In this document: positions 1,541 through 59,425 of the stretch, one piece after another
How the letters are laid out: every line of letters begins with the position of its first letter
Numbering within the stretch: position 1 is the stretch's first letter
Origin: a virus
Virus record (IMG/VR): IMGVR_UViG_3300008117_003079
Location: 1-64,000 of that record
DNA length: 64,000 nt
Direction: 5' to 3' (one strand)
Position numbers and translations under genes: made by a program
Notes under the pieces: model-generated
The model's input: the letters and a program-made list of their open reading frames with translations, nothing else
What the model was told of the DNA's origin: nothing
Database searches by the model: none

Positions 1541-3154
1541 TTAAAGAGTTTCTAAACCATCTACGAGAATCTTACCGTAGAATTCTGGTCTTACGATTTT
1601 CTTTGCGTAACGAGTCATAACACCTCTACGTGGAGTAAAGTTGGTTGGGTCGTACACTAAAGGAGTCATAATCAATGGTACATAAGGTGCGTAAACTGCT
1701 CCAGTCTCGAAGAAGTTAGAACCTTTGAAACCTAACAAGATTACGTTTTCAGTCATGTAAGGGTTTTTGTAAACATCGTATCTGTTAGAGATTGAACCGA
1801 TGTTAGTTACACCTGCTGCGAAAGTCAACGCATCTTTACCAGGGTTTGCAGAGAATCCGTTCATTGATTCCAAAATTGTAGCTACGTTTGGAGAAACAAC
1901 CAAGAAGTTTGCTCCACCACGCATAGTCAATTGGTGAATTTTGTTAGATACTTTCTGCAATTTGATACCCAAAGTTTGGAACCAAGTATTCTTTTGGTAA
2001 GCCGAAGCAGCTGCTGCGTTAGAATCAATAGCGAATCCAGCACCAGTCCACTCATATCCTACTTTAGATGACCAGTATTCAGTTGTGAATGCGTTCTGCT
2101 GCAACATCTCAAGGATTTCCAAATCAATCTCCAAAGAGATGTATTCAGATAACATTTGAGTCAATTCAGCTTCTGCATCTACAGAGTGATATGCGTTCAA
2201 ATCTTGCGCCAATTCAGGAGTCCAAATTGCCTTCAACTTACGTGTTTTAGCAACGATAGGCTCTGATTTCAATTCCAATTCAATTTCTGGAATTGCCAAA
2301 TCTGTTCCTCTATCTTCGAAATCACCACGAGAAATATCAGTAGGTTGTACGTGATATGCCAATGATACACCAACAGTTGTAAGGTTAGATAAACCAGTTA
2401 CAGATGCAACGAATTCAACATTTGAACCATTTTTAGTTGTGTATTGTGGATAGTATCCTGTTACAGAACCTGTTAATAAAGTTGGTTCGAAAGCTCTAAC
2501 ACCATTGAAATCAGCATCAGCTGGTAAAGCTACAACGATTTTCTTCAATGTGTTACCTGCGAATGATGCAGAAACTGAACCAGAAGATAAATCATAATCG
2601 ATATCAGCTAAAGATGCAGATGCAAAAGTAGCAGTGATAGCAGCAGTAGCGTTGTTGATTGTATAACCAAAACGTCCTGCACCATAAAGACCTCCTTCTG
2701 GAGATTGAGTTGAACCTAGTTTGTTACCAGCTGGAGATAAAGAATCTTTACCGAAAGTACCACTGTTACCAAACAAAGATGAACCTGTGAAATTTGGATT
2801 ACCCGCTGGGTTAGTACCATATTTGAAGTCCATGTAGAAAATAAGACCTGATGGTAAGTTCATTGGTTGAACTGAAACGAATTCTTTCGCTGCAATAGAA
2901 CCGAAGATACGTCTTACCAAAGGAAGAGCCACACCAGCCCACTCTTCAGAACCTGAAGAAGTACCAGTACGAGTTGCCTCATCCAATAATTGTTTAGCCT
3001 GGTTTTCTAACATTACTGCCATACCATGCTTTGTAGTTTCAGAACCTACTCCTTCAAGTAGACCTGTTCTTTCCCATTTGCCTTTCAAACCTCTGGTTTG
3101 CTCAAGCATCACGCTCTGTGGGTTCGCGCCGCTCATTAATTTTTTAATGTTCAT
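1541..3154 (-). CDS. gp23: Major capsid protein, T4 gp23-like
   Basis: 537 residues, close to T4 gp23 (521). Around residues 95-115 the string VQPMNLPSGLIFYMDFKYG matches the T4 landmark VQPMNSPTGQVF. The HK97-fold shell protein assembles the hexameric capsid lattice. T4 gp23 loses its N-terminal 65 residues through gp21 protease; here L57-D58-E59|A60 fits the L-x-E|A rule at the equivalent place, giving a mature shell protein of about 478 residues. It lies directly after the scaffold gene and is followed by a strong terminator. The start MNIKKLMSG has an A/T-rich leader without a Shine-Dalgarno sequence. Confidence 0.95.
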   Translation of the reverse strand: MNIKKLMSGANPQSVMLEQTRGLKGKWERTGLLEGVGSETTKHGMAVMLENQAKQLLDEATRTGTSSGSEEWAGVALPLVRRIFGSIAAKEFVSVQPMNLPSGLIFYMDFKYGTNPAGNPNFTGSSLFGNSGTFGKDSLSPAGNKLGSTQSPEGGLYGAGRFGYTINNATAAITATFASASLADIDYDLSSGSVSASFAGNTLKKIVVALPADADFNGVRAFEPTLLTGSVTGYYPQYTTKNGSNVEFVASVTGLSNLTTVGVSLAYHVQPTDISRGDFEDRGTDLAIPEIELELKSEPIVAKTRKLKAIWTPELAQDLNAYHSVDAEAELTQMLSEYISLEIDLEILEMLQQNAFTTEYWSSKVGYEWTGAGFAIDSNAAAASAYQKNTWFQTLGIKLQKVSNKIHQLTMRGGANFLVVSPNVATILESMNGFSANPGKDALTFAAGVTNIGSISNRYDVYKNPYMTENVILLGFKGSNFFETGAVYAPYVPLIMTPLVYDPTNFTPRRGVMTRYAKKIVRPEFYGKILVDGLETL

Positions 3155-3183
3155 TTTAAATGAATTTATTTGTTTTATTTAAA

Positions 3184-4437
3184 TTATTTAATAATACCTG
3201 CTAATTTCTTAAATCTGTTAGCAAAATTAGCTGATTCATTGATTACCGCTTTAGATTGAGCAGGTTTTGTAGATTTAACTGCTTTACTAGCGATACCTTC
3301 TGAAATAGCCTTTTTAGTTAATTTGTTAGAAGATGAAGTATATTTGAAATTCTCTGCTAATGTAGAGAACACTAATTTAACCTCTCTTACTGATTTTGTT
3401 CTATCCAAAGTTTCAATCACTTTCACTTTTTGTTCGTTAGTCATGTTATGAGCTCTGAATAATTTGTTTGCAAACAATAATTTGGCGTTCAATAAGTTCA
3501 CCTCATTAATAGTTTTTTGAAGAGTTCTGATAGTTCGGTACGCCTCATTCAAGTCTTTCTTTAGAGATTCTGCCTTTGGCTCTTCTTCACTTGAACCATA
3601 CTCATCTTCCATTTCTCTCAAGATTTCTGCTAAATCAACCGTATCTTCATCTTCTTCTTCACCTTCGTTAGTTACCACTACTTTAGGGTCTTCACCTTTA
3701 TCAGTACCTGCTTCTGAACCATCTGCTAAATTTTCGTTAGCTGGGAAAGGGTTTTCTTCGTATTCTTCTTCTTCACCTTCCATAGCTGGCTCTTCTTCAT
3801 CACCTAACTGTGCTTCTAATTCTCTGATGATAGCTTCCAATCCCATTTCGTCTTCTTCTTCACCCTCCATTGGGTCTTCTCCAAAAGAATCTTCTTCACC
3901 ACCAGCCATTGCCATTGGGTCTTCTTCTTCTGTTGCTGCGAAAGGGTCACCTTCTTCTTCACCACCGAATTCATCTGCACCACCAAATTCGTCTTCACCT
4001 TCTAATTCTGCTAATCTTGCTTTTAATTCAGCAATTTCTGCATCCTTATCAGATTCTTCTTCACCACCGAAGTCGAATTCATCTTCTTCGTTAATATCTG
4101 CTACTTTTTTGTAGTCAGTACCTGCTGCCTCTGGCTTACCACTATCTTTCTTTACACCTACTGATAAATCAGTAATTGCATCGTAAGATGGATTTGCTCC
4201 AGGGGTTTCAGGGTATCCAGCATCTGATTTAGACCCGATACCATCTGAACTTAATTCCTCGTCTACTTGTTCTGCATCATCTTCCATTTCTGCTTCTGCT
4301 CTCATCTTTTGAGATAAGATAGATTGAAGTCGTGGAGTAAATGCCTCTTCAAGCGCAAGTTTTGCGTTTGCTAAAGCGGTTTCTTTAACGGCTTTGGCAT
4401 CAGCGATTGCTTCTTTCAATAATTTTGAATTTGCCAT
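3184..4437 (-). CDS. gp22: Prohead core scaffold, T4 gp22-like
   Basis: 417 residues in three parts: a basic/helical N-terminus (ANSKLLKEAIADAKAVKE), an extremely acidic middle (about residues 50-300, long Glu/Asp runs), and a helical C-terminus (LNAKLLFANKLFRAHNM ... VREVKLVFSTL) typical of gp22 of marine T4-like phages. Scaffold proteins nucleate the prohead and are then degraded by the gp21 protease; many L/I-x-E sites are visible, for example L7-K8-E9|A10. It is encoded just before gp23, as in T4. The acidic repeats create long antisense ORFs that are not genes. Confidence 0.88.
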   Translation of the reverse strand: MANSKLLKEAIADAKAVKETALANAKLALEEAFTPRLQSILSQKMRAEAEMEDDAEQVDEELSSDGIGSKSDAGYPETPGANPSYDAITDLSVGVKKDSGKPEAAGTDYKKVADINEEDEFDFGGEEESDKDAEIAELKARLAELEGEDEFGGADEFGGEEEGDPFAATEEEDPMAMAGGEEDSFGEDPMEGEEEDEMGLEAIIRELEAQLGDEEEPAMEGEEEEYEENPFPANENLADGSEAGTDKGEDPKVVVTNEGEEEDEDTVDLAEILREMEDEYGSSEEEPKAESLKKDLNEAYRTIRTLQKTINEVNLLNAKLLFANKLFRAHNMTNEQKVKVIETLDRTKSVREVKLVFSTLAENFKYTSSSNKLTKKAISEGIASKAVKSTKPAQSKAVINESANFANRFKKLAGIIK

Positions 4438-4550
4438 TTTTGTTGTATGTTGATTGTGAAGTTATTTCTAAAAAACTCCAATAGGATTATGCTGATTGTT
4501 CGGTCACATCTTATATGAAAGAGTATTCGTTAATCAACTGTACTTTAATT

Positions 4551-4574
4551 AAAAAATCCTATATGAGATAGGAT
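4551..4574 (-). terminator. Hairpin with T-tract upstream of gp22
   Basis: ATCCTAT (plus 4556-4562) pairs with ATAGGAT (4568-4574) across a 5-base loop, followed by six T on the minus strand. It may terminate the operon ending with the bS21 gene or act as an attenuator in the 170-base leader of gp22. A variant of the A/T promoter-like motif lies just before it, near 4581-4600. I see no small gene in this leader. Confidence 0.65.
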
Positions 4575-4607
4575 ATTCGAAAATAAATATATAAATTTTT
4601 TAGAAAA

Positions 4608-4796
4608 CTAAAGAAAACCCAAATCTTTTTGATTCTTTCTTATAGCTTTTTCTTTTTCTAATCTATTTTTAACGGATGGTTTAACAAATGTCTGCCGTTC
4701 TCTTAACTGCTCTACTTGTTTAATGTTCTGAACTTTTCTCTTATATTGTTTCAGAGCTAGTTCTATATTACCGTTTTTAATATCAATTATAATCAT
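4608..4796 (-). CDS. rpsU: Ribosomal protein bS21, phage-encoded
   Basis: 62 residues, the normal bS21 length. ELALKQYKRK matches the family's N-terminal helix (ALxxYKRK), and LRERQTFVKPSV matches the second segment in the form typical of Bacteroidota (LRxRQxFxKPSV rather than the proteobacterial RRREFYEKP). bS21 binds the 30S platform near the 3' end of 16S rRNA and affects start-site selection. In flavobacterial ribosomes bS21 helps hide the anti-Shine-Dalgarno sequence, with a Tyr near position 54; the aligned phage residue is Arg53. The protein could replace host bS21 during infection. It lies in the head operon between the Dps-like gene and gp22. Confidence 0.85.
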   Translation of the reverse strand: MIIIDIKNGNIELALKQYKRKVQNIKQVEQLRERQTFVKPSVKNRLEKEKAIRKNQKDLGFL

Positions 4797-4801
4797 AATT
4801 A

Positions 4802-5173
4802 TTATTGATGATTTACTAATTTGTATTTTGTTCTATATAACAGAGATACAACCGTATCAATATCGTTTTGTAACCAACTATCTTTTAATTTAGGATTTTG
4901 TCTTAATCTAGCTACCATATTACATAAAGTATCAAAGTATTTAATGATATTTTTAATATCATTATTTTTATCCAATGTTCCAATGCCAGATAATTGAATT
5001 AATCCTTCTTTACCCTGATATGTTTCTACTAACCCATCAATCAATCCACCAATTGAATCATAGTAATCTCCCAATGCCAAATGAGCAGAATGAGAACCAA
5101 TTCCTTTAACTCCTAAATGAAATGAGTGAGCTTGGGTTCTACTTTGTAATAATAATGATGCTAATTCTTCCAT
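4802..5173 (-). CDS. Ferritin/Dps-like four-helix protein (DUF5856-like)
   Basis: 123 residues, predicted mostly helical. The pattern AHSFHLGVKGIGSHSAH ... YYDSIGGLIDGLVETYQG (about residues 14-57) resembles a phage family described as Dps/ferritin-like, with His and Asp/Glu residues placed as in a four-helix metal-binding bundle. The family name is from memory. No catalytic role can be proven; metal storage or DNA protection is possible, and its setting in the head operon would also suit a core protein. It lies 5 bases before the bS21 gene and is probably co-transcribed with it. Confidence 0.55.
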   Translation of the reverse strand: MEELASLLLQSRTQAHSFHLGVKGIGSHSAHLALGDYYDSIGGLIDGLVETYQGKEGLIQLSGIGTLDKNNDIKNIIKYFDTLCNMVARLRQNPKLKDSWLQNDIDTVVSLLYRTKYKLVNHQ

Positions 5174-5179
5174 TTATTT

Positions 5180-5617
5180 TTATGCTTTCCATTTCATTGC
5201 CTGCATTTTCTTACTCATGTCAGATGTTATTCCTCTTTCGGTAGCCTCATCATTCATTGCTTTGGTTGCAGTTCTTGTCAATTCCAATTCTAATTCTTGG
5301 TAATTAATATCTGGATCGTCTTTATATTGTTTTAATATCCGTTGTGTATATGAATCGTTAACAAATGCAGTTATCCAAGCTGGTCCAATTCCAGTAGTAG
5401 AAACAATATCATTCATTCTACTAATAAACCCTCTGTTACCATATAATTTTTTGTAAATATCTTTTAATGCTCTCTGTACTCCAACACTTCTACCATGATA
5501 ATATGCATCGACATTATCGGCTAATTTACTAAAGAACATAGTAATAAACCCAAAGAATGCAATAGTGCCAAGTATTGCCAATAATCCTAGTTCATTCAAA
5601 GGTTCTTTTTGTGACAT
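5180..5617 (-). CDS. Hypothetical protein with N-terminal membrane segment
   Basis: 145 residues. Residues 9-31 (ELGLLAILGTIAFFGFITMFF) form one hydrophobic helix. The remaining ~110 residues are helical, with a basic stretch at VQRALKDIYKKLYGN and a C-terminal coiled-coil-like segment. I do not recognise the family. It lies within the gp21-gp22 interval, where T4 has few genes, and shares a short-gap layout with its neighbours, so it is likely made late with head proteins. A membrane-associated prohead initiator or injected protein is possible but unproven. Confidence 0.5.
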   Translation of the reverse strand: MSQKEPLNELGLLAILGTIAFFGFITMFFSKLADNVDAYYHGRSVGVQRALKDIYKKLYGNRGFISRMNDIVSTTGIGPAWITAFVNDSYTQRILKQYKDDPDINYQELELELTRTATKAMNDEATERGITSDMSKKMQAMKWKA

Positions 5618-5629
5618 TATTTTTATATT

Positions 5630-6265
5630 TTAATATTTTGGACCCATATTACCTTTTGCCATAGAATCTGCCCAAATTTGGAACATCTTCTTTAAATCAG
5701 CAGGTAATTGTTTATCTCTAATGGATAGTTTTCCATCAGGTGAAATATGTGCGATTATTTTGTAATCACCATGTTGTTCTTCTGCTCTATTCCAAATAGT
5801 TAAACCATTTCCCATATAGCCAGAACCAATATCGTATTTTTTAGCTTCTTGAATTGAACTTCTACCCAATCGTTGCTTCATAACTTCTTCAGATACATCA
5901 GCAATTTCAAAGTATCTACCCAATACATGACCCATATCTTCGTACAATGCTTCTAATCTTTCTTCCTGTGCTTTTGCTTCAAGTGATTCTTTTTCGAATG
6001 CAGATTGTAATTTTTTCAATTCATTCATATTACGCTTAATTGTAACTCTATCGAACCAATCACCACCCTCTCTTAAAGTATATTCTTGTGCAGCATCTGC
6101 AATCCCACCTAAAGTTTCTGCAATAGTTCTGATGTCAGATTTTCTACGCATTCCCTCTCTATGCTGTCCATAGGTAGAAATAATTTCCAAAAAGTGTCTT
6201 TTCAACTCTGTTGGGAGTTGTTGAAGTTCTTCTGATTCTTTGAGTAAATTTTTTAAACGTATCAT
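5630..6265 (-). CDS. Putative prohead core protein with protease-like cleavage sites
   Basis: 211 residues. The first ~140 are charged and helical. After S-I138-Q-E140|A141 a compact C-terminal domain begins (KYDIGSGYMGNGLTIWNRAEE ... GKLSIRDKQLPADLKKMFQIW). The N-terminus MIRLKNLLKE|S also ends in L-x-E. These sites match the prohead protease rule, suggesting the small C-terminal domain is released during maturation. Its family is unknown to me. It is next to an 88-residue gene and gp21, in the position of T4 core genes. Confidence 0.5.
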   Translation of the reverse strand: MIRLKNLLKESEELQQLPTELKRHFLEIISTYGQHREGMRRKSDIRTIAETLGGIADAAQEYTLREGGDWFDRVTIKRNMNELKKLQSAFEKESLEAKAQEERLEALYEDMGHVLGRYFEIADVSEEVMKQRLGRSSIQEAKKYDIGSGYMGNGLTIWNRAEEQHGDYKIIAHISPDGKLSIRDKQLPADLKKMFQIWADSMAKGNMGPKY

Positions 6266-54174: not shown

Positions 54175-54884
54175 TCCTCGTGTGAGTAGAATGATACTAT
54201 ATTATATTTAATATCATTCTTTACTTTTTCAACTTCATGGAATAAATTTTTATCAGAATCTAATACTACAAAATTAGGAAAAATTGGATTTACTTTAATA
54301 TCATTTCCATTTAAATCATGTAATATCAAATGCCCACCGTTTGATTCACCCCATTCATTATTTAAAAAATACAAAAATACACATATTCTGTTGTTAGGTT
54401 GTCCATCATCGTGTAATTTTATTTCGCAACCTTCATTGTAAAATTGCAGTTTTGTATTTTCAGTAAATCTACCAAACGATTTTTCAGGATAGTATTTTTT
54501 TACAAAGTTTTTTTGAAAATTTCTTAATACTTCATTGTTTATTTTTCCATTTATTTCTGAATTCATAGAGGTACCAAATACCCAAGTTGGATAAAATCCA
54601 CATTCTTCAATTTTTTTCAATTGATATTGATGTGCTTTATTATAAACATAATCGGCAGTATTTAAATCTTTATCATTTTTTAAATACCCATCATACACCA
54701 ATTCTTCCATATATGATTGGTCGTTGTATTTAAACCAATAATCATATCTAGAATGTCTTACAAAATTTGTATTATCTATATAATCTTTTATTTGTTTAAA
54801 CCCATCTAAATCGATTAGTTCGGAATAATCTTCCAACTTACCGTAAATGTATCCACTATTTCTGTAATTTTCTATACTTTCCAT
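54171..54884 (-). CDS. 2-oxoglutarate/Fe(II) oxygenase, prolyl hydroxylase-like
   Basis: 237 residues. The iron ligands are H158-D-D160 (HxD) and distal H216 (LFHEVEK), with KYNIVSFY (226-233) supplying the 2-oxoglutarate-side basic residue. YFLNNEWGESNGGHLILHD is the strand pattern of 2OG-FeII_Oxy_3 enzymes. Such genes are common in T4-like phages and may hydroxylate protein or nucleobases. It shares its start with the stop of the SbcDC fusion gene (one-base TAATG overlap), and its stop with the convergent RHH gene. Confidence 0.82.
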   Translation of the reverse strand: MESIENYRNSGYIYGKLEDYSELIDLDGFKQIKDYIDNTNFVRHSRYDYWFKYNDQSYMEELVYDGYLKNDKDLNTADYVYNKAHQYQLKKIEECGFYPTWVFGTSMNSEINGKINNEVLRNFQKNFVKKYYPEKSFGRFTENTKLQFYNEGCEIKLHDDGQPNNRICVFLYFLNNEWGESNGGHLILHDLNGNDIKVNPIFPNFVVLDSDKNLFHEVEKVKNDIKYNIVSFYSHED

Positions 54885-57800
54885 TAGAAATTAATTTTAC
54901 TATATCCATTTTCTTTTTTAATTTCAATCAATCCATCTACTATATCTCTCATTTGTTCTAAATGGGAAATTATCCATATAAAATCAAATTGAGTTTTAAG
55001 ATATTGCATCATCATAAATAGTGATGATAAATTATCTGAATCCAATGTGCCAAATCCTTCATCGATTACCAAAAAATTTGGACGAGGTAAGTTACACACA
55101 TTGATAAGAGCAACTCTAATTGCCAATCCACTAACAAATTTTTCCATACCACTACACATCTCCAATGGCCATTCTTGGTCATCATAAACAATTTTGGCAT
55201 TGATTGATTTTCCATCCATCTCCATCGTAACTCCAAAATCAACTACTTGTGCCAAAATATTATTTACCTCATTCTCAATTACAGGTAATGCTTTTGAAAT
55301 TAACTCATATGGGATTCCATCTCTCTTTACTGAATCCAAATAATAGGTATACAGGCGGTTCTTTTCTTCCAATGCCTTAACATCATTCATCTTCTGTTTT
55401 ATGTCCTCTATAAACGAAGATATGGATGTAATAGAACCATTTAAATTTGTTATATCTTTATTTAATTTACTAATATCATTTGCAATAGTATTTTTTGCTT
55501 TATTTAATTCAGAAATTTCACTTTCTATTTCTTTATTTCTAGAAATAGTATCTTCATTTTCATAATACTTATCTATATTTTCATCAATTGTATCTAATTG
55601 ATTTTGTAATAATTGTTCTTTAGTTTTTAAAGCACTTAATTCTATTTGTGTTTTTTCTAAAATAATTTTACTTCTAGAGTATTTGTTTTTTAGTTCATTC
55701 CACTCATTATATTGCTCTTCAACTCCATTTAAGGAATCTAAAACACAATTGATTGCAGCAACTTCATTAAAAGTATGCTCTACTGATATTTGCAATCCTT
55801 CTAAATCTGATTTTGCTTTTACTGCATCTTTCACAAATTCATTATCACAACAGAATTTACAATTAGGGTCATATTGGTGATTATTTAAATGTCCAATCTT
55901 TTCTTCAGCTACTTCTAATTGTTGTTTTGCTTTTTGGTATACTTTTTCTGCTTCAACTAAATCTTTGGATTGTTTTACAAAATCGTTATGAGCAATTTCT
56001 ATATCAACTTCATTGTCATCTATTGTGAATTTACATTTTTCAAATAGGGATTGTGAAACTTCGGTAAGTAAAATTTTATGTTGTTCAATTTTACTTTCTT
56101 TTAATTCATAATCAGTTTCTGCATCTTCAATCTGTTTCGATATAGAGTTTCTTTTTGATTCTAATAAAGATAAATCAAGATTAGAATCAATTGGAGTTAA
56201 TTCTCTACTTAAATTTACAATTTTATCATTTAATTCACTTACTTCCGTATTTTTATCACTTAATAATACTTCTAATCCCTTTAATTGTGATTTTTTTTCC
56301 AATAATTCCTTACCCTTTTCGGCAAGTTCTGTTGTAAAATCTGTTTTCTTAAAGTTTTTAATCAATACGGAAACTTCTCTAATATCTTCAGTTGCAGTAT
56401 CATATAGTTTATCAAAAATAGTTAAACCCATAAATTGTGCAAGAAGGTCTTTCCTTTCTGATTGTGATTTATCAATAAAAAGGGCATTATTACCTTGCAG
56501 TGATAGTGCAGTTAGTACAAAATCTTCATATTTTCCAACATATTGTTCAATAATTTGGTTTGTATCTCTTCTTTCGGTTCCATTTAGTGATGTTTTAGTA
56601 TCACCATCTTGTCTCCAAAATTGAACATCTACTTTTACATTTTTTCCTTTGTTAATCGTTTTAGCAGTTCTCTGAATACCATATTCTACCCCATCTATTT
56701 GAAAATATAGTGTACAATCAAAATCCGTTTTACGATTATTTAAGATATTAGATGCTTTATATGCTCTACTACTCTTATCATATAAACAAAACGATACTGC
56801 ATCAAATAAAGAAGATTTGCCCGCTGCATTTGGGGCAAATAATCCAACTAATCCGTTTAATTTTGTAAAATCAATTTTGTTACTTTCTCCATAACTAAAC
56901 ATATTTGAAAACTCAAAACGAATTGGTTTCCATTGAATGTTGCGTTGGATGTCATCTTGAACGATTCTACTATTTATATCTCTGTTAATCAATTCTAGCC
57001 CTTTTAAATCTTCAGGAACTACAAAAGGCATCATTCTCTCAATATACTCATTTATAAGTGAGTTTTGATAATTGATGTCTGAAATATCTTCAAAGTCTAA
57101 TTTGTTTAATCTATCACCTGTTTTAGATTTAGAAAGGGAATCGGTTCTAATAATTGTAAAATCCTCAACACCATATCTCATTTTAATTTCAGCCATTACT
57201 CTTTTAGTATCAGCGGAATCGGTATTAGATAAACGAACTCTCAAACGAGGTTTCTTTGGCATATCGGATACGATAGGAACTTTCCCATTATCAATATCCA
57301 TAGTATAATACCCATAATCGTTTTGGATATCAACTGCTTCGTAAGTAAAAGTATCCAAATCCCAAACGAGGAACCCATGTTTATCTAGGGTTTCACCAAA
57401 GTTTTGTTGAATAAGAGAACCAGCATAGACAACCTTACAACCTTTTGGAGAAATCATCTCTTGTCGTTTGTGAATATCACCTAATAAGGCTAAATCGTAT
57501 CCATCAAACATATCAGTTGTAAAATGACGAGATGAAACGGTGTATCCAATATCTGTTTGAGAATTATCAACTGGCCCGTGAAATAAAGCAATCTTTTTGT
57601 TTCCAAATATAGTATTTGCTTTTGGCCAATTTGCTTTATTATCAAAGATACTGAATACCGCAAAATCTATTCCACCAATACCATACACTTGAGTATCTTT
57701 GAGATATGTAAAGTTTGGTAAGTTTAAAGCATCTACAATTGGAGTAAGAACATCCAATCTATCAGAGTTATTCATATTACAATCGTGATTACCTGTAATA

Positions 57801-58042
57801 AGGATTGTTTCACAATGTTTAGAACACTCCGTAAATAACCAACTAATCTCCCTAACTAATTCAGGAGATAATTCTAATTTAGCATGAGCAATATCACCTG
57901 CTAAATAAATGATTGAATCATCCGTACCTCTTTTACGAATCTCCTCAAACATCTTTTCAAAAACCTGTCTGTACTCATTGTGTCTTTTCACATTACGGAT
58001 GTGTATATCTGCAATATGATAAATCTTTTTCAATCTACTCAT
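54884..58042 (-). CDS. gp47-gp46: Fused Mre11-Rad50 nuclease/ATPase (gp47-gp46, SbcD-SbcC)
   Basis: 1052 residues in a single frame. Residues 1-340: Mre11/SbcD phosphoesterase with DIH (12-14), GD (49-50), GNHD (84-87), His155 and GDIHKR (188-193). From ~370: Rad50/SbcC ATPase with Walker A ...APNAAGKS (403-410), long coiled coils, zinc hook C728-K-F-C731, signature SGMEK (964-968), Walker B LVIDEGFG (991-998), D-loop and H-loop His1027. T4 keeps these as separate genes 47 and 46; here they are one chain. It resects DNA ends for recombination-dependent replication. It overlaps the primase gene by 4 bases. Confidence 0.95.
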   Translation of the reverse strand: MSRLKKIYHIADIHIRNVKRHNEYRQVFEKMFEEIRKRGTDDSIIYLAGDIAHAKLELSPELVREISWLFTECSKHCETILITGNHDCNMNNSDRLDVLTPIVDALNLPNFTYLKDTQVYGIGGIDFAVFSIFDNKANWPKANTIFGNKKIALFHGPVDNSQTDIGYTVSSRHFTTDMFDGYDLALLGDIHKRQEMISPKGCKVVYAGSLIQQNFGETLDKHGFLVWDLDTFTYEAVDIQNDYGYYTMDIDNGKVPIVSDMPKKPRLRVRLSNTDSADTKRVMAEIKMRYGVEDFTIIRTDSLSKSKTGDRLNKLDFEDISDINYQNSLINEYIERMMPFVVPEDLKGLELINRDINSRIVQDDIQRNIQWKPIRFEFSNMFSYGESNKIDFTKLNGLVGLFAPNAAGKSSLFDAVSFCLYDKSSRAYKASNILNNRKTDFDCTLYFQIDGVEYGIQRTAKTINKGKNVKVDVQFWRQDGDTKTSLNGTERRDTNQIIEQYVGKYEDFVLTALSLQGNNALFIDKSQSERKDLLAQFMGLTIFDKLYDTATEDIREVSVLIKNFKKTDFTTELAEKGKELLEKKSQLKGLEVLLSDKNTEVSELNDKIVNLSRELTPIDSNLDLSLLESKRNSISKQIEDAETDYELKESKIEQHKILLTEVSQSLFEKCKFTIDDNEVDIEIAHNDFVKQSKDLVEAEKVYQKAKQQLEVAEEKIGHLNNHQYDPNCKFCCDNEFVKDAVKAKSDLEGLQISVEHTFNEVAAINCVLDSLNGVEEQYNEWNELKNKYSRSKIILEKTQIELSALKTKEQLLQNQLDTIDENIDKYYENEDTISRNKEIESEISELNKAKNTIANDISKLNKDITNLNGSITSISSFIEDIKQKMNDVKALEEKNRLYTYYLDSVKRDGIPYELISKALPVIENEVNNILAQVVDFGVTMEMDGKSINAKIVYDDQEWPLEMCSGMEKFVSGLAIRVALINVCNLPRPNFLVIDEGFGTLDSDNLSSLFMMMQYLKTQFDFIWIISHLEQMRDIVDGLIEIKKENGYSKINF

Positions 58043-58980
58043 AAACTATTTATTTTATTTAATAGTAATTCTTCCGAAGTAAACTCTTTAGTTTTATTTA
58101 GTTCTTCGTAGAATTTTTCATACCCCATATCAGCGGCATCTTTATCTTTCAAATACATCATCTTAACTTGAATTCCATTCTTTCTAAAGTATTCCGCAGC
58201 TTTTAATGCTTCATTCATCGCATCGTTATCTAATGAAATTACAATATCACTAACTCCACTCATAAAGATTTTCTCAACCAATTGTTTGGATGGAAACTTA
58301 CCTAAAAGTGGAATTGCATTTCTTTTGATTGTGATTGCATCAAATACACCCTCACATAGTATAATTGGTTCATTCCAATTAACCTGTGATTCTAAACAAA
58401 TTATATTTTTACTGATTGGAGGGTTTTTGTATTTCATCTTCTCATCTGGATAATAAGAACGAGAAACAAAATAGTTTAGTAAACCATCCGAACTGTACGA
58501 TGGTATAATTATTCTCCTACTATACAACCCATCTTTGCAATAACCAATGTTATATTTAACAATTTCCTTTATACCAATTCCTCTTTGAGAAAGATAGAAC
58601 ATAGCATGTTTATATTCTGGATTGAATCCAGTTGGTTCATCTGCTAATGAAATAAATTCCTTTGGGAGTTGTATAAATACTCTAGTTTCAGCATCTTCTT
58701 GTTGAGGTGTCCAATTACTATCTCCGTAGATTTGTCTAATTATGGATATAGTTTGTCTATCCACATCCAACTTACGAAGTAGAGATGTAAGTTTTTTACC
58801 ACCACTATTACAATTCCAACAATGCCATTTCTGACTTTCTGTATTTACTTGCAATTTAGGTTTGTGGTGGTTACAGAAAGGGCAATAAAAGGCCAATTCA
58901 TTACCTTTTAAATAATTGTATGTACCCAACACATTTGATAGTGTGGATGTAACGAGATTTTTATCAGTTTGATTCAACAC
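58039..58980 (-). CDS. gp61: DNA primase, T4 gp61/DnaG-like
   Basis: 313 residues if the GTG at 58980 is the start (VLNQTDKN); an ATATTTATA motif lies 13 bases upstream. The zinc-binding motif has C33-P-F-C36 and C54-W-N-C57, like the CHC2 domain. About 200-260 holds a TOPRIM fold: IILCEGVFDAITIKR (Glu) and DIVISLDNDAMN (Asp pair). It makes primers on single-stranded DNA at the fork, working with a helicase not in the window. It is followed by the SbcDC fusion with a 4-base overlap. Confidence 0.88.
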   Translation of the reverse strand: MLNQTDKNLVTSTLSNVLGTYNYLKGNELAFYCPFCNHHKPKLQVNTESQKWHCWNCNSGGKKLTSLLRKLDVDRQTISIIRQIYGDSNWTPQQEDAETRVFIQLPKEFISLADEPTGFNPEYKHAMFYLSQRGIGIKEIVKYNIGYCKDGLYSRRIIIPSYSSDGLLNYFVSRSYYPDEKMKYKNPPISKNIICLESQVNWNEPIILCEGVFDAITIKRNAIPLLGKFPSKQLVEKIFMSGVSDIVISLDNDAMNEALKAAEYFRKNGIQVKMMYLKDKDAADMGYEKFYEELNKTKEFTSEELLLNKINSL

Positions 58981-59020: not shown

Positions 59021-59425
59021 TTAAAACCAATCCTCTGGAATAATCTTATCAGAGTATTTGAATCCGTTTTTATCACACCAATCTCCATACGAAGTTTTAG
59101 AGCTTTTTGTGATTTTGTTTTTTGAATTAGAAAATACGAATCTTATATCCAGTTCTGGATTTTGAGATTTAACTAACAGATGCTTTTTCCTATCAGCTGC
59201 AACAAATCTACCTTTAGTTTCTACAAAAATACCATTAGGTAATTTGAAATCAGGATTATAAGTGTGGTTCGAAGCGGGTATGATGTAAGGAATCTTTTCA
59301 GATTCATATTTAACATCAATACCCCTCTCTTTGATTTGGCTTGAAATAGTTTCTTCAAGACCAGATTTGAATCCGTGTTTTCTAGCAACCCAACTTTTAG
59401 ACTTCTTTGTAACTTTTTTAGCCAT
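59021..59425 (-). CDS. Endonuclease I, T7 gp3-like Holliday junction resolvase
   Basis: 134 residues, the size of T7 endonuclease I. VPxVIPASNHTYTPDF-type sequence is present as PYIIPASNHTYNPDFKLPNG; the catalytic set maps to E24, E41, D59, E69 and K71 (T7 E20, E35, D55, E65, K67). RKKHLLVKSQNPELDIRFVFS also matches T7. The enzyme cuts four-way junctions and debranches DNA before packaging. T4 uses a different enzyme for this (endonuclease VII, gp49). It lies beside the primase and recombination genes, so it is likely to serve the same replication intermediates. Confidence 0.93.
   Translation of the reverse strand: MAKKVTKKSKSWVARKHGFKSGLEETISSQIKERGIDVKYESEKIPYIIPASNHTYNPDFKLPNGIFVETKGRFVAADRKKHLLVKSQNPELDIRFVFSNSKNKITKSSKTSYGDWCDKNGFKYSDKIIPEDWF

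Follow-up and report, generated by a model that had tools for sequence, protein, structure and literature searches.

Described fusions of Mre11 and Rad50

Mimivirus R555 is a fusion of Mre11 and Rad50 (Yoshida, Claverie, Ogata 2011, PMC3175470). This article describes twelve further fusions from bacteria, plasmids, eukaryotes and one phage, and reports that the domain order and a linker of 9-12 residues fit the T. maritima complex. In the same article, many R555-like sequences in aquatic metagenomes are argued to be viral, some of them likely from phages, and the scaffolds that carry them are reported to encode primases and T7 gp3-like endonucleases (for example, gp3 of Yepe2). The fusion work is cited in the reference list of a 2013 paper (PMC3655615). 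Here we describe a gene of this type from a freshwater-type phage, in a window of 64,000 nucleotides, which is positions 1 to 64,000 of the virus record IMGVR_UViG_3300008117_003079 (94,186 bases). The gene is a genuine and intact single-chain nuclease-ATPase fusion, and the fused state is clade-wide and common to many aquatic phages. Its product is very probably the phage Mre11-Rad50 (SbcCD, gp46/gp47) complex in the form of one polypeptide, a fusion protein of the type represented by R555, which would work as a homodimer in end processing.

As described in PMC3175470, R555 shares with the window protein an Mre11-type N-terminus and a Rad50-type C-terminus in one chain, a capping and helix-loop-helix region and a short linker. 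The linker of the window protein (11 residues) is inside the range given there. Furthermore, the replacements described for R555 (His in place of the third Asp in GDxxD, and Asp at the position of Pyrococcus furiosus His206) are matched by H53 and D189. The two proteins differ in that the window fusion is a phage protein of 1052 amino acids (aa), whereas R555 is a giant-virus protein of 1351 aa. The first-pass annotation of the window presented the fusion as a compact form of the complex, which suggested a new arrangement. This suggestion cannot be maintained, because Mre11/Rad50 fusions were already described in 2011 and R555-like genes were argued for aquatic phages in that article. Beyond the 2011 description, the present analysis shows that the fused state is clade-wide and that the tree contains a large viral clade of fused proteins; as a contrast, it points to a Listeria phage record in which the fusion is likely an artefact.

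In T4 and E. coli K-12, the nuclease and the ATPase are encoded by separate genes, as the first-pass annotation had stated for T4 and bacteria. T4 gp47/gp46 belong to the same two families and are transcribed in the same order as in the window, but two small genes lie between them and their motif V reads GHxH rather than GDxH. The fold and the ATPase motifs are shared with E. coli SbcCD (7yzp, 7yzo and 6s6v matched in structure at Z of about 25-26); it consists, however, of two proteins (400 and 1048 aa) with a longer coiled coil. Two phages carry a comparable single chain. The protein of the isolate Microcystis phage Mel-JY01 (WWT39521.1), which has a cyanobacterial host, is 41.6% identical over the full length. 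It is encoded by one annotated gene in one frame with a primase gene just upstream, as in the window, and is annotated as "AAA domain containing protein" without being named a fusion. An endonuclease I match, present in the window, was absent from the stretch fetched. The metallo-phosphoesterase of Tenacibaculum phage PTm1 (phrog_35725) is also a single-chain fusion and belongs to the same supported clade, but it has 1318 aa, is very divergent (long branch) and has other neighbours.

Between gp47 and gp46 of the cyanophages Syn1 and P-SSM2 lies a conserved gene that encodes about 90 aa (T4-GC 142; 3726-3998 of locus L118 and 2285-2563 of locus L128). Its position corresponds to the helix pair of the fusion, and it could carry the Rad50-binding part.

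One uninterrupted frame encodes a complete nuclease and a complete ATPase

The fused gene is a single frame on the minus strand, from the ATG at 58042 to the stop codon at 54884-54886, and encodes 1052 aa with no internal stop. The plus-strand translation of 54884-58042 contains many stops. Thus, the 1052-residue frame that had been reported at these positions is borne out, on the minus strand. The features of the gene are as follows (pLDDT, predicted local distance difference test; pN/pS, ratio of nonsynonymous to synonymous polymorphism).

54884..58042, minus strand: whole gene, Mre11-Rad50 (SbcD-SbcC, gp47-gp46) fusion, 1052 aa; one open frame, Pfam and PHROG matches to both halves.
57323..58042, minus strand: Mre11-type nuclease domain, residues 1-240, with D12, H14, D50, H53, N85, H86, H155, D189 and H191; Metallophos, alignment with 1ii7 (P. 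furiosus Mre11), Mre11/SbcD chains matched in structure at Z 22-25.
57089..57322, minus strand: capping domain, residues 241-318, with a poorly predicted stretch at 301-315; secondary structure and pLDDT of the model, and residues 5-300 match the SbcD nuclease and capping domain 7dog.
56969..57088, minus strand: conserved helix pair, residues 319-358, taken as the Rad50-binding helix-loop-helix of the Mre11 C-terminus; helices 323-337 and 343-358, pLDDT about 87-90, conserved across relatives.
56936..56968, minus strand: 11-residue linker, residues 359-369; AlphaFold model, pN/pS 0.30 at 361-374 versus 0.59 in the coiled coil.
56423..56935, minus strand: Rad50 N-terminal ATPase lobe with Walker A and Q-loop, residues 370-540; AAA_23, model, K409 invariant in 113/113 sequences.
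55883..56422, minus strand: first coiled-coil arm, residues 541-720; long helices in the model.
55850..55861, minus strand: CKFC zinc-hook motif, residues 728-731; sequence, cysteines aligned in 113/113 and 112/113.
55328..55840, minus strand: second coiled-coil arm, residues 735-905; model.
54887..55327, minus strand: Rad50 C-terminal ATPase lobe with signature, Walker B and D-loop, residues 906-1052; SMC_N, alignment to SbcC 6s6v, pN/pS 0.09 for 895-1050, the lowest of the gene.

Both halves were recognised by family searches. Pfam gave Metallophos at 6-192 (E 1.6e-9) and AAA_23 at 379-599 (E 8.8e-16), and SMC_N over 377-1047 slightly below the curated cut-off. In PHROGs, the SbcD-like phrog_100 matched 5-337 (3.8e-35) and the SbcC-like phrog_77 matched 324-1051 (5e-57). 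Sequence searches of the PDB led from the first half to Mre11 of Pyrococcus and Thermotoga and from the second half to Rad50/SbcC. Walker A lies around N405-S410, the CxxC hook at C728 and C731, the signature at S964-G965-M966-E967 and Walker B at D994-E995; an H-loop was also found. Thus, all elements named by the first-pass annotation (full Mre11-type nuclease, and Rad50-type ATPase with Walker A, zinc hook, signature and Walker B) were recovered by Pfam, PHROGs and the sequence.

The motifs and the joint were counted in 113 sequences (97 different proteins) from the window and 115 further loci (L002-L116). Three loci were excluded: L003 and L106, in which the nuclease part is interrupted, and L057, which missed the motif pattern although its frame is whole. 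D12, D50, H86, H155, D189, H191, K409 and D994-E995 are invariant in all 113 sequences, and H14 and N85 are present in 112. H53 aligns with the final His of GDLFH in P. furiosus Mre11 (1ii7), which we take to be catalytic there. In L104 and L106, the hook is apparently wider (C-x6-C instead of CxxC).

We considered the Asp in motif V as a marker of fused proteins. All 113 fused sequences carry it, and it is missing from T4, Syn1, P-SSM2, Moorella, OPT-SC01, Hallingskeid and E. coli. However, two of the nine separate-gene sequences, those of the T5-like phages Vibrio D239 and Providencia PSTCR5, also possess it. Therefore, this Asp is not specific to the fusion and the marker was dropped.

The fused state is kept among relatives

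A search of viral contigs gave 431 confirmed relatives, and the best 80 (70-100% identity) were fetched. In all 80 nearest loci the frame continues across the joint, and Mel-JY01 likewise has one frame; in seven of the 80, the contig ends before the 3' end of the gene, past the joint. The first-pass annotation had asked whether the same fusion is a clade-wide state, and had named relatives with separate genes and a stop at the joint as the finding that would speak for an error. The fusion was found throughout, and no relative of the latter kind was present among the 80 nearest loci. The joined frame was also observed at the joint in 20/20 more distant loci (26-48% identity to the Mel-JY01 protein) and in 10/10 still more distant loci, which are relatives of the huge phage LR756501. 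The joint is conserved in length and sequence among relatives. The pN/pS value was 0.24 in the helix pair, 0.30 in the linker and 0.59 in the coiled coil (600 pairs from 80 sequences); judged from these sequence comparisons, purifying selection acts on both the helix pair and the linker.

AAA_23 matched once per record, inside the fusion, in 10/10 long relatives and in the window's own record. A second Rad50-type ATPase match was not found in the 10 long relatives searched. Additional small phosphoesterases of about 220-260 aa are present in three of these 10.

Two loci deviate inside the nuclease part. In L003 (LR756508.1, a 484-kb phage), an inserted 305-aa gene (3674-4588) interrupts the fused gene just past nuclease motif V. 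The inserted gene encodes a TnsA-like endonuclease domain, and no RNA family was found above threshold at the insertion; it looks like a homing-type insertion. In L106, one of the 20 more distant loci, the joint is intact and the frame breaks inside the nuclease domain, so that the nuclease part is formed by two overlapping frames (2983-3654 and 3644-6223) with a few dozen extra codons. The break lies between the GDIHK and GS(L/T)xQQ motifs, at about the same place as the insertion in L003. This site may be an insertion hotspot or carry an old remnant.

Predicted structure

The protein was modelled as a monomer by AlphaFold with 42 sequences, namely that of the window and those of 41 relatives. 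The mean pLDDT was 81.4; because the predicted template modelling score (pTM) of this monomer was 0.45, the relative placement of the domains is unreliable. In the model, the nuclease and capping domain are followed by the helix pair 323-337/343-358, the 11-residue linker, and the Rad50 heads and coiled coil. The join had been placed at about 340-375 by the first-pass annotation. This is close to the model, in which the final helix on the nuclease side reaches residue 358 and the Rad50 part begins with a strand at 370. From the model and conservation, the pair at 319-358 is taken as the Rad50-binding helix-loop-helix. In a structure search, residues 5-300 matched SbcD/Mre11 chains and residues 370-1040 matched SbcC/Rad50 chains (Z 22-26).

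In the viral structure library (BFVD), the best full-length matches were mostly giant-virus proteins. Ranks 1-5 were from Tupanvirus (26% identity), Harvfovirus, Yasminevirus, Terrestrivirus and Catovirus, all of which we take to be giant viruses of eukaryotes. The matches from Tupanvirus, Harvfovirus, Yasminevirus and Catovirus are named as DNA repair proteins. The TM-scores of these five were modest (0.28-0.57), which is probably due to flexibility of the coiled coils.

Phylogeny of the fused proteins

Trees were constructed from 18 fused sequences chosen for spread and nine separate-gene pairs. With a mixture model, 17 of the 18 fused sequences formed one clade with a support of 100/100. 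With a simpler model, the support for the same clade was 90 for Mre11 alone, 99 for Rad50 alone and 99 for both. Besides the window and Mel-JY01 groups, the clade comprises L104, Tenacibaculum phage PTm1 and the relatives of the huge phage LR756501. Several branches are long, and the tree should be read with caution. The remaining sequence, from Rhizobium phage RHph_TM30, is also fused. Because the tree does not settle its place, one and two origins of the fusion are both compatible with these data. Scans for further relatives of TM30 and PTm1 gave one locus each, and that of PTm1 was itself or an identical sequence.

The giant-virus proteins that rank first in BFVD are a hint, suggestive only, of kinship with R555. 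We tentatively raise the idea of a single ancient fusion event, from which one viral lineage would have spread to aquatic and huge phages, to phages of Tenacibaculum and to giant viruses of eukaryotes. R555 and the phage gene would then both derive from this event, with exchange of the fused gene between phages and giant viruses; we consider this possible but see the chances as being against it.

Neighbouring genes

Two genes upstream of the fusion are well conserved.

58039..58980, minus strand: primase gene, directly upstream and overlapping the fusion by 4 bases; phrog_47 DNA primase (E 2.9e-51), upstream in 79/79 close loci with room.
59021..59425, minus strand: T7 gp3-like endonuclease I gene, upstream of the primase gene; Phage_endo_I (E 7.5e-58), present in 74/74 close loci with room.

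These neighbours match those reported for R555-like scaffolds in PMC3175470. Among Mel-like loci with room, the primase is present in 19/19 and endonuclease I in 14/18. Among the relatives of LR756501, the corresponding numbers are 0/10 and 0/9. The downstream 2-oxoglutarate oxygenase gene is poorly kept (16/61 loci).

Seven plasmid records matched, and none had a place covering 80% of the query. In one scan of bacterial and archaeal genomes, four loci were found, all in metagenome-assembled genomes, and a phage-type primase adjoins two of the four. We read these four loci as phage contigs in bins, not as cellular genes.

Proposed function and alternative explanations

Most likely, two identical fused chains would form the working machine with their nuclease domains paired. 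The Rad50 heads would engage each other upon ATP binding, and the coiled coils would meet at the zinc hook. The helix pair may dock on the root of the coiled coil in cis; the 11-residue linker of the model fits a nuclease tied to the ATPase within the same polypeptide. Opening and closing of the heads, driven by ATP, would gate the access of DNA to the nuclease, as in SbcCD. The DNA ends would most likely be processed into 3' single strands for recombination-dependent replication, together with the adjacent primase and endonuclease I. We infer the dimerisation, cis docking, ATP gating and biological role from the family, namely from SbcCD and T4.

Several points weigh against this proposal. 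The role in replication is argued only from T4 and from the neighbouring genes, and the structure is a monomer model with the pTM given above. In all 113 sequences, motif V has Asp (D189) at the position of His206 in P. furiosus Mre11; because of this replacement, the nuclease chemistry may differ. Moreover, none of the searched records is classed as at least 90% complete, so that a second complex encoded elsewhere is possible.

If a sequencing or assembly error had removed a stop codon or shifted the frame, two real genes would appear as one. The record of a different phage, Listeria phage LMTA-57, may contain such an error. There, a single 1009-aa frame is annotated (2238-5267 of locus L133), whereas two genes are present in LP-064 (about 98% identical) and in BSP36. 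This is the picture expected for the error that the first-pass annotation had named. Because the LMTA-57 stretch differs from that of two-gene LP-064 by single-base gaps, a sequencing error in the LMTA-57 record is possible. In the case of the window gene, we reject this explanation because 80/80 relatives read through the joint. The read-through in the isolate Mel-JY01, the purifying selection across the helix pair and linker, and the conserved length and sequence of the joint also oppose it, and we assign it practically no probability.

The working complex might instead not be purely single-chain, if the fusion were accompanied by a free Rad50 half translated from an internal start, or if the fused chain were cut by a protease. 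In close relatives, two adjacent in-frame ATG codons are indeed present just before the joint (column 337 is ATG in 80/80). However, the Mel-JY01 group does not retain this ATG pair, and Shine-Dalgarno matches of at least 4 bases in at least five of the 80 sequences were found at none of the starts in the joint region. The latter test is weak because 23 of the 26 gene starts checked in the window lack even a 3-base match; this may point to a host without dependence on such sites, for example from the Bacteroidota. We regard this explanation as very unlikely. A somewhat less improbable but still unlikely idea concerns the role: the protein might mainly degrade host DNA or counter host defence rather than serve phage replication. 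T4 gp46/gp47 are annotated as required for host-DNA degradation besides recombination. In contrast, the primase gene directly upstream and the nearby T7 gp3-type endonuclease gene, in 79/79 and 74/74 loci, point to replication and recombination, and host-DNA degradation and replication roles can coexist. Thus, we prefer the homodimeric fusion acting in end processing.

Significance of the fusion

The known kinds of Mre11-Rad50 systems are unchanged by this fusion. The long contigs support the 2011 argument that the abundant aquatic R555-like sequences belong to phages. Full-length members and an isolate (Mel-JY01) are now at hand for study. As a natural single chain with a fixed 1:1 stoichiometry and a coiled coil shorter than that of SbcC, the fusion is a convenient experimental model of Mre11-Rad50.

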